Assembly (NCBI GenBank): GCA_027058925.1
Contig: JALTAS010000253.1
Coordinates: 1 to 6,543, forward strand
DNA from: Persephonella sp.
Lineage (GTDB): Bacteria; Aquificota; Aquificia; Aquificales; Hydrogenothermaceae
Direction: 5' to 3'
DNA length: 6,543 nt
Part shown: positions 1,247 through 3,612 of the stretch, in pieces
Numbering within the stretch: position 1 is the first letter of the stretch
Layout of the letters: the number at the start of each line of letters is the position of its first letter
The notes under the pieces: generated by a model
What the model saw: the letters and a program-made list of their open reading frames with translations, nothing else
The model's database searches: none
What the model was told of the DNA's origin: nothing
Program-made: the position numbers and the translations under genes

Positions 1247-3187
1247 TCACACCTCTAATTTTTTGATCTGGAGTCTGAGAGCATTTGCGACAACTGTCAC
1301 AGAACTGAAGGACATGGCTACACCTGCAAAGATCGGCTTTAAAAGAATTCCAAAGAAAGGGTAAAGTATCCCGGCTGCTATAGGAATGCCGATTATATTA
1401 TAAACATAAGCCCAGAAAAGGTTTTGCTTTATTATTCTGAATGTCTTTTCAGAAAGTGAGTAAGCCTTCAGCACAGACTTCAGATCATCAGAAAGAATAA
1501 TCATATCTCCTGCCTCTTTAGCAAGATCTGTAGCCTGAAGCACAGCTATACCAACATCAGAAACAGCCATTGCAGGTGCATCATTTATACCATCTCCTAT
1601 AAATAATGTTTTTTTTCCCTTTTTCTGGTAATCCCTAACTATTTTGTATTTTTCTTCAGGAAGAAGCTCCCAGTAGCATTCATCAAAACCTGCCTCACCA
1701 CACACACTCTGTGCAGAAAGCTTTCTATCTCCTGTCAGCAGAACAGTTTTTATTCCTTTTTCTTTTAGTTTTTTTACAACATATCCTGCATCCGTTTTTA
1801 TTTTGTCTTGAAGGAAAAAAACAGCTACTATTTTTTTGTCAACAGCTATTATCACTTCTGTTTTTCCTTCAGGAAGGTCTATCTTTAAGCCATTTTCTTC
1901 CATAAGTTTTCTGTTTCCTATTATCACCTGTTTACCTTCAACAACAGCCTGAACTCCCCTGCCGGGAAATGTTTTTAAATCCTCTGCTTTTTTATCAAAA
2001 AAAGGTATGTGTGGCAAAACAGCATCAATAACAGGATGCTTAGACTGGGAAGCTACAGGATATGCAAATTTCAACATCTTCCTGTCATAAATGATGTTCT
2101 GTAAGACCTTAAGTTTCCCCTCTGTTATTGTTCCGGTTTTATCAAAAAAAGCTGTGTCCACTTCAGGTATTCTTTCTATAACATCAGGATTTTTTAAAAG
2201 AATACCCTCTTTAGCTCCTCTCCCAACAGAAGAAACAACGGCTATAGGTGTTGCAATCCCCAGTGCACATGGGCAGGCTATTATAAGAACAGAAACAGAA
2301 GCCAGAAAAGCTATATCAGGCCGGTCAAAAATGTACCACAGATCAAAGGTTATTATTGATATTATAAGAATAGATGGAACAAACACAGCCACTATCCTGT
2401 CTGCCAGTTTGCCGACAGACGGCTTTTTTTCCTGAGCTTCAAAAAGAAGTCTTGTCATCTGGGAAAGGAATGTTTCTTTTCCTGTTCTTACAGCCTTTAA
2501 AAGAATATAACCGTTTGTGTTAATGGTTCCTCCTACTACACTGTCTCCTACTTTTTTAAAAACAGGAAGAGACTCACCTGTTATCATTGACTGGTCTATC
2601 TCTGCTGAGCCTTCAACAATAACACCATCAACAGGAACTCTTTCCCCTGTTTTAACAACAACTATATCTCCCTTTACAATGCTGTCAGCTGGAACTTTGA
2701 TCTGTTTTCCATCAACGAGGATTGTGGCTTCCTGAGGTTTAAGGTTGAGCAGTTTTTTCATAAAGTCTGTTGCTTTGTTTCTTGAACGGCTTTCAAGATA
2801 CCTTCCCATAAGAACAAATGTTATTATTGATGCTGAGCCTTCAAAATAAAGGTTTCTCATCTGGAAAACAAAGATCTCTGGAAAAATCATAACAAACAGC
2901 GAGTAAAAAAAGGCAGCAGATGTGCCTATAACAATAAGAAGGTTCATATCGGCAATCCTGTTTTTCAGACCGCCTATGGCAGATCTGTAAAACTCAAATC
3001 CACAATAAAACTGGACAATAGAAGCCAATGCAAAAATAAGGATATTTTTTGGTGTAATAAACTGGTTAAGTAAGGATTTTTCAACGGCAGGAATATCAGC
3101 AAAATGGAGGAAAAATACAAAAATAGTAAGTATCAGTGAGATAAAAAACCTCTTTTTAAGATCCTTCTCTTCCTCTAACTTTTTTTT
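1247..3187 (-). CDS. copA: Copper-translocating P1B-type ATPase, catalytic core (3' frame of copA)
   Basis: This frame encodes the membrane and catalytic part of a Cu(I)-exporting P-type ATPase. Numbered on the 758-residue product obtained by joining it to the HMA frame, it has M1/M2 at about 126-142 and 159-180, M3/M4 at 194-243, the actuator TGES at 315-318, M5 at 375-396, and M6 with the metal-site CPC at 417-419. The phosphorylated Asp461 is in DKTGT, the nucleotide-domain HP is at 496-497, GDGINDAP is at 643-650, and M7 YN at 708-709 and M8 MSFSS at 737-741 complete the set. CPC, YN and MxxSS together are the Cu(I) (P1B-1) signature. The frame is open up to 3187, bounded by a TGA at 3188-3190, and has no ATG or GTG start. 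The only candidate, a TTG at 3026-3028, lies inside M2 without a ribosome site and would delete M1. Expression of the whole pump therefore needs a frame switch on the A9 run. All catalytic residues are intact, which argues against an old pseudogene. Confidence 0.9.
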   Translation of the reverse strand, partial: KKKLEEEKDLKKRFFISLILTIFVFFLHFADIPAVEKSLLNQFITPKNILIFALASIVQFYCGFEFYRSAIGGLKNRIADMNLLIVIGTSAAFFYSLFVMIFPEIFVFQMRNLYFEGSASIITFVLMGRYLESRSRNKATDFMKKLLNLKPQEATILVDGKQIKVPADSIVKGDIVVVKTGERVPVDGVIVEGSAEIDQSMITGESLPVFKKVGDSVVGGTINTNGYILLKAVRTGKETFLSQMTRLLFEAQEKKPSVGKLADRIVAVFVPSILIISIITFDLWYIFDRPDIAFLASVSVLIIACPCALGIATPIAVVSSVGRGAKEGILLKNPDVIERIPEVDTAFFDKTGTITEGKLKVLQNIIYDRKMLKFAYPVASQSKHPVIDAVLPHIPFFDKKAEDLKTFPGRGVQAVVEGKQVIIGNRKLMEENGLKIDLPEGKTEVIIAVDKKIVAVFFLQDKIKTDAGYVVKKLKEKGIKTVLLTGDRKLSAQSVCGEAGFDECYWELLPEEKYKIVRDYQKKGKKTLFIGDGINDAPAMAVSDVGIAVLQATDLAKEAGDMIILSDDLKSVLKAYSLSEKTFRIIKQNLFWAYVYNIIGIPIAAGILYPFFGILLKPIFAGVAMSFSSVTVVANALRLQIKKLEV

Positions 3188-3522
3188 TCAAAACTGCCTG
3201 TGTCTTCGGAAGCATCATAACCAAGCTCTTTTATTTTCTGGATAATGTCCTGTTTTGAAATCTTTGATGGATCGTACTCAAAAACACCCCTTGATGTTGC
3301 AAGATTTACAGAAGCAGATATTATTCCATTTGTAGCTCTAAGGGTTGCCTCTATACCTGCAACACATCCTGCACAGTGCATTCCTGATATGTTAAGCTCA
3401 ACCTTTTCTGTATTTCCTGAGTTTTTTTCAACTTTACCATCTTTATCTTTTTTTCCAAAGAAAAACCAGCCTATACCTCCTATCATCAGCATTGAAACAG
3501 AAAGAACAGCAACCTTATCCAA
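3175..3522 (-). CDS. copA: Membrane-anchored HMA copper-binding domain (5' frame of copA)
   Basis: Encodes 115 residues if read without a frame switch. Residues 3-23 form one hydrophobic helix ending in WFFFGKK, and a charged linker spans about 24-40. An HMA fold follows at about 41-104 with the metal motif GMHCAGC (Cys50 and Cys53). The positive residues after the helix predict N-out topology with the HMA domain in the cytoplasm. The start chosen is TTG at 3522, six bases after a perfect AGGAGG. GTG at 3525 is in frame but only three bases from it. The longer open frame upstream runs antisense through alr and has no ribosome site. The frame stops at TAG 3175-3177, directly after the A9 run, and a one-base shift continues into the ATPase. 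It may be a genuine small copper carrier made beside the full pump, or simply the N-terminus of a copA split by an indel. Confidence 0.8.
   Translation of the reverse strand: MDKVAVLSVSMLMIGGIGWFFFGKKDKDGKVEKNSGNTEKVELNISGMHCAGCVAGIEATLRATNGIISASVNLATSRGVFEYDPSKISKQDIIQKIKELGYDASEDTGSFEKKS
3180..3188 (-). promoter_or_regulatory. A9 slippery tract joining the HMA and ATPase frames
   Basis: Nine consecutive A on the minus strand. Read in the HMA frame it gives G AA AAA AAA A, containing the canonical -1 heptamer A AAA AAA (3187-3181), followed by AGT and then TAG. The ATPase frame has TGA at 3190-3188 just before the run. The permitted switch window is therefore only the run and two or three bases after it. 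Either -1 ribosomal slippage or insertion of one A during transcription yields the full pump. No strong Shine-Dalgarno-like stimulator is seen upstream. Homopolymer sequencing error is the alternative. Confidence 0.6.
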
Positions 3523-3612
3523 CACATTCCTCCTGATAAGTTTATAACCATAATTTATACCTGTTTTTAAGAAAAAAAAAGGGTTTTTTGATAAAATTAC
3601 GAAAAGATAAGT
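3523..3612. promoter_or_regulatory. Divergent copA / alr promoter region
   Basis: A 90-bp AT-rich gap between divergent genes, holding A9 (3572-3580), GGG and T6 (3584-3589). For alr, TG-A-TAAAAT at 3589-3597 resembles an extended -10 box; it would place the start site near 3604 and leave a leader of about 9 nt. For copA, TATAAA on the minus strand (3559-3554) is a possible -10, with no convincing -35 upstream. I see no clear dyad of the CueR or CsoR kind. The promoter positions are weak inferences. Confidence 0.4.
3529..3534 (-). promoter_or_regulatory. Shine-Dalgarno site of copA 5' frame
   Basis: AGGAGG on the minus strand, 6 nt before TTG 3522 and 3 nt before GTG 3525. It decides the start in favour of TTG and excludes the longer open frame that overlaps alr. 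Confidence 0.75.

Follow-up and report, generated by a model that had tools for sequence, protein, structure and literature searches.

A nine-adenine run conserved between two copA frames in the Hydrogenothermaceae as a probable programmed slippage site

Runs of nine adenines (A9) slip efficiently in bacteria, and Thermus thermophilus dnaX, in the available parts of the reports on it, carries a sense-strand A9 inside the gene with nearby stops in the other frames, from which two products arise in about equal halves (PMC5009743, PMC1088944). The unslipped frame of dnaX encodes the long protein, whereas the unslipped frame of Shigella mxiE encodes the short one, the only relation for which we compare mxiE here (PMC1088944, in the part available). 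Escherichia coli copA uses a slippery sequence, a pseudoknot and nascent-chain effects to yield both a copper pump and a short heavy-metal-associated (HMA) domain protein, CopA(Z), in cells that have no separate chaperone gene (PMC9548414, PMC7558416, PMC5009743, as far as their available text describes it). Furthermore, the accessible text of the GeneTack survey describes clusters of genes with poly-A sites, in which A-rich heptamers are conserved at the frame transitions, and reports that reporter cassettes with 11, 9 and 7 adenines, taken from three different genes, shifted at 63%, 40% and 10% (PMC3711429). That survey covered seven Aquificae genomes, and its main text, in the part available, mentions neither copper, ATPase, Persephonella nor lipoate; likewise, we found no report of slippage in copA or lipoate ligase of Aquificota in the accessible portions of the open-access literature. 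Here we describe a copA of the Hydrogenothermaceae that, judging from sequence, would work like Thermus dnaX, with its A9 and its flanking stops, and would yield a pair of products like that of E. coli copA. What appears to differ from these two systems is the reversed logic of copA, the predicted membrane anchor of the short product and the probable reuse of the device in a second gene. In contrast to dnaX, and as in mxiE, the unslipped frame here is the short one.

The window analysed, 6,543 bases long, is the whole of one contig from a 262-contig, 78% complete, 1.40-Mb genome. It is Persephonella-like, of the family Hydrogenothermaceae, and the closest named relatives of its proteins are from Persephonella. 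The copA gene lies on the minus strand between two genes that we take, from their translations, to be GDPD-like and alr-like. Its unshifted HMA frame ends TTT GAA AAA AAA AGT TAG, and the frame of the CopA ATPase lies at −1 to it. Both frames, the TAG and the TGA were read again in the sequence and lie as the initial annotation had described, splitting copA exactly at the A9 run. The features are as follows.

3529..3534, minus strand: AGGAGG, a Shine–Dalgarno-like site before the short frame, six bases ahead of TTG 3522
3175..3522, minus strand: unshifted frame from TTG to TAG, 115 amino acids, with an N-terminal hydrophobic segment and one HMA domain
3457..3513, minus strand: predicted transmembrane segment VAVLSVSMLMIGGIGWFFF, mean hydropathy 2.08 (prediction only)
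3214..3396, minus strand: HMA domain with the metal-binding motif GMHCAGC (PF00403, 64 bits, E 1.7e-17; no other PF00403 match in the genome of the window)
3180..3188, minus strand: A9 run (T9 on the plus strand), the putative slip site, with a G on either side (3189 and 3179)
3175..3177, minus strand: TAG, the stop of the unshifted frame, one codon past the run, as read in the sequence
3188..3190, minus strand: TGA that closes the ATPase frame upstream, its last base being the first A of the run
1247..3181, minus strand: −1 frame, encoding the Cu+-ATPase part of CopA in 644 codons that begin with AAG at 3181 and precede a stop (TIGR01511)

Within the run, an A AAA AAA heptamer stands in frame, and joining the first 114 residues of the short frame to what the 644 ATPase codons encode yields the 758-residue CopA that had been proposed. 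In line with the claim that this product keeps every catalytic motif, CPC, DKTGT and GDGIND are present in the translation. The ATPase part matches the TIGR01511 copper-translocating P-type ATPase model with 578.5 bits (cut-off 397), and its nearest solved chains are CopA structures; by its copper P1B-ATPase profile and its catalytic motifs, it is a complete Cu+-ATPase part of CopA. As had also been noted, the ATPase frame has no usable start for the whole pump domain: the sole ATG, GTG or TTG in its first 60 codons is the TTG at 3028, which is codon 51.

We searched the ATPase frame in 41 Hydrogenothermaceae genomes and found a copy that spans the junction in 31 of them, belonging to eight genera; the remaining ten contain no ortholog, or only pieces in which the junction is missing. 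In 30 of the 31 junctions, a G-A9-G sequence lies between HMA and ATPase frames that are −1 apart, and six of these 30 genomes are assembled into one to five contigs (G001, G003, G012, G029, G033 and G035). Such recurrence at one exact position is more than chance would give, G-A9-G being found only twice in the genome of the window. Neither A10, A7 nor a single-frame copA, the forms that, by the initial annotation, would have spoken against slippage, occurs in any of the 31. Its proposal that the logic is reversed, so that the default frame gives the short protein and the shifted frame the pump, agrees with the layout of all 31 junctions: the unshifted frame stops after the HMA domain, unlike that of E. 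coli copA, which, in the available descriptions, is the pump. The flanking stops are conserved as well, with a stop one to three codons after GAA AAA AAA in 29/29 loci and stops in the third frame within 2–9 codons, also in 29/29, and the codon phase of the A9 run never changes in copA. Among 20 aligned family copies, the identity of the ATPase falls to 48%, and the catalytic columns are invariant. The sole exception to A9 is an A8 in G016 (L152), a draft assembly in 320 contigs, 7% contaminated, where the frames are still apart but by the other shift; the A8 may be a true change or an error. One further locus, L014 (G013), has an intact A9 junction and 15 stops in the matched ATPase stretch, as in a low-quality draft or a decaying gene.

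Conservation at the run extends to the choice of synonymous codons. The 28 codon-aligned loci, from which L014 was left out because its ATPase frame is broken further on, share 118 columns in which the residue is invariant and a synonymous choice exists; nine of these use a single codon throughout, four of them at the slip site. Of the 14 invariant Lys or Glu columns, only the four at the slip site are single-codon, and each of the remaining ten shows more than one codon. All 28 loci cap the run with AAG, though AAG is the rarer codon (459 of 2014 Lys codons). These counts are not independent, as the loci share descent, and the same rows serve as the codon control. The nucleotides of the slip site are conserved beyond the need of the protein, and the two-frame layout is kept among orthologs. 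By comparison, among 20 other G-A9-G places taken from the family genomes as a control, only two, L230 and L231, lie in the same gene; no gene recurs among the others. A search for relatives of the short product (E at most 1e-10) gave 60 clusters (68 candidates), all of which end one to three residues past EKK. The residues after EKK begin with S or R, which AGN codons would encode. Close relatives share the length and start of the short product, among them P0001 with 115 amino acids and 97% identity.

These features make programmed slippage at the A9 of copA very likely. As the best single account, and a probable one on the sequence evidence, we propose that slippage by RNA polymerase gives two useful products. 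The polymerase would slip on the A9 run, so that unslipped transcripts would encode the 115-residue predicted membrane-anchored HMA copper-binding protein, and transcripts with one extra A would encode the 758-residue CopA pump. The short product may then pass copper to the pump or to other proteins. Roughly equal amounts of both products would be our guess, by the published shifts at A9.

The short product had been described as a small copper carrier. The HMA domain supports part of this description, and an alignment of ten sequences contains CAGC, a CxxC motif, but a soluble carrier seems less apt. In 29/29 loci, the N-terminus has a 19-residue hydrophobic segment with a mean hydropathy of 1.72–2.33, and because this segment is kept throughout, the short product is more likely to be membrane-anchored than to be a soluble CopZ-like carrier. 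By the positive-inside rule, the Lys-rich stretch that follows the segment in the window would place the HMA domain in the cytosol. CopZ is small and soluble, with about 70 residues, in contrast to 115 residues and a hydrophobic N-terminus here, and the best CopZ family model scores 64.8 bits, below its curated cut-off of 95. Exactly one PF00403 match, the short frame of copA, is present in 11 of the 14 genomes of the genus; the other three have no PF00403 match and no copA junction. A separate CopZ was not found in the 11 genus genomes that have an HMA, at the sensitivity of the PF00403 search, in keeping with the E. coli cells described above. The predicted anchor sets the short product apart from E. 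coli CopA(Z), as far as the available text describes the latter, and resembles that of CupA from Streptococcus pneumoniae, a copper-binding partner of CopA that an N-terminal helix tethers to the membrane (PMC7558416, in the part available). However, CupA is cupredoxin-like and has its own gene, whereas the HMA domain here lies inside copA.

A second candidate gene emerged in the sister family, where 13 of the 20 G-A9-G places examined fall in one gene, which combines lipoyl ligase and CO_dh domains with a weak match to DUF116. As this gene was found via its A9, its discovery is biased; the later ortholog search (E 1e-80) was not restricted to A9 and recovered the gene in 55 of the 112 genomes searched from the order, with named matches in Hydrogenobacter, Thermocrinis, Hydrogenivirga, Aquifex and Hydrogenobaculum. 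Among the 48 loci read (L165–L212), 45 have A9, L197 has A8 and L207 has A10. The other seven of the 55 genomes comprise five of genus g14, two of which were read at the site, and two with only pieces. The A9 run of the 45 loci occupies codon phase 2 in 27, phase 0 in 14 and phase 1 in 4, and the ligase and DUF116 halves share one frame in 38 loci and are split by −1 in the other 7 (39 fused and 8 split when the A8 and A10 loci are added). The nine adenines persist through changes of codon phase, residues and frame state, a pattern that polymerase slippage predicts and that appears to fit it better than ribosomal frameshifting; because the codon phase of copA never changes, phase independence rests on this second gene. 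On these sequences, ligase-DUF116 is likely to be a second slippage gene.

In the Hydrogenobaculum-like genus g14, the run is absent in the two copies read (L213 and L214). A separate ligase frame of 343–347 amino acids is present in all five g14 genomes (G070–G074), although a TAA interrupts the match in one of them, and it looks as though the short product came from a second gene there. Elsewhere, L203 has no run at the usual place, and has an A9 (L203:692-700) and a frame break about 125 codons upstream, possibly a draft error.

Single-frame relatives of the split copA exist outside the 31 junctions. In Arcobacter-type relatives, the HMA and ATPase parts are joined at the matching place, which suggests, because of that position, that the ancestor of the split copA was fused; among the matches listed, these relatives are without the N-terminal segment. 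P0113, a metagenomic and family-like protein, is a single-frame HMA–ATPase fusion of 756 amino acids, 51% identical to the ATPase, in which the N-terminal segment of the family is present and, at the protein level, EKEKL replaces EKKKL at the junction. P0113 may be a paralogue.

Whether polymerase or ribosome slips had been left open by the initial annotation, and the length of the run together with the codon phase of the second gene favours, at the level of sequence, RNA polymerase. If transcripts were instead uniform, programmed −1 ribosomal frameshifting at A AAA AAA would make the pump, with an identical protein as the result, and every G-A9-G junction, that of the window included, contains the heptamer in frame. 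E. coli copA is itself recoded by the ribosome, according to the available parts of two reports (PMC9548414, PMC7558416). The 60 nt downstream of the run also form somewhat more stable folds than mononucleotide shuffles do (mean z −1.43, against −0.04 upstream; 29 loci), a mild tendency in favour of the ribosome. However, nine adenines rather than seven are fixed, plus a capping G, and both the ninth A and the G count against the ribosome because a seven-A heptamer needs neither. Across the 29 loci, moreover, we detected no consensus RNA pairs among nested structures and no upstream Shine–Dalgarno-like stimulator common to the loci, although five of the 29 have a fair upstream site of this kind, with an energy of −5.6 or lower, which speaks for the ribosome; the stimulatory elements of E. 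coli copA have no conserved structural counterpart here on this count. The three codon phases of the second gene tell against the ribosome too, yet nine adenines include the A AAA AAA heptamer in frame whatever the phase. We consider ribosomal frameshifting unlikely.

An ancient one-base loss could also have been tolerated, with slippage rescuing the pump and the short protein as a useless by-product. Slippage is known to rescue frameshifted genes at homopolymers in insect endosymbionts, and P0113 is an example of a fused form. Three observations speak against this reading. A10 would restore the frame and commonly arises by mutation in such runs, but it appears in 0/31 junctions; the short product is the only HMA protein in 11/11 genus genomes that have one; and for the second gene, the run-less genus has a separate short ligase gene in 5/5 genomes. 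We regard a tolerated loss as improbable. Two separate proteins, with the ATPase started alone by reinitiation or coupling and no frameshifting at all, would agree with the 566–634 amino acid ATPases that databases hold for most family matches, and with an ATG 25 codons into the ATPase frame in 9/29 loci. But another 9/29 loci contain no ATG, GTG or TTG in the first 60 codons, the first comes as late as codon 51 in the window, and a separate start leaves the fixed run unexplained, which makes it very improbable. A sequencing or assembly indel had been named as the main rival, and homopolymers are indeed error-prone and the genome of the window is fragmented and incomplete. This explanation falls with the recurrence of the same A9 and the same split in the other family junctions, six of them in assemblies of one to five contigs, and a dead copA is at odds with the invariant catalytic columns; we give either next to no weight. 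Polymerase slippage with two useful products remains our preferred reading.

Extending this reading across the order, we lean, though not strongly, towards a picture in which nine-A runs serve a bacterial order as built-in two-protein switches, with RNA polymerase as their reader. In one family, the switch would fix how much membrane-tethered copper chaperone is made relative to the pump. The sister family would make a lipoate ligase with or without its DUF116 half; there, the genomic frame would be free to flip between fused and split, with slippage making both products anyway. If this is true, copA has been recoded twice in bacteria, the two logics being opposite and the machines probably different, and a fixed carrier-to-pump ratio would then seem to be worth a recoding site. 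The listing in databases of a shorter ATPase beside a separate HMA protein would, by the slippage reading, be misleading. The second gene, with its nine adenines constant and its phase and frame state changing, offers a natural test between polymerase and ribosome slippage, and cultured members in Persephonella, Sulfurihydrogenibium and Hydrogenobacter make slippage directly testable.

G-A9-G occurs only twice in the 1.40-Mb genome from which the window comes, both times on this contig; the second instance, at 3572-3580 with the A9 on the plus strand, lies between copA and the alr-like gene.
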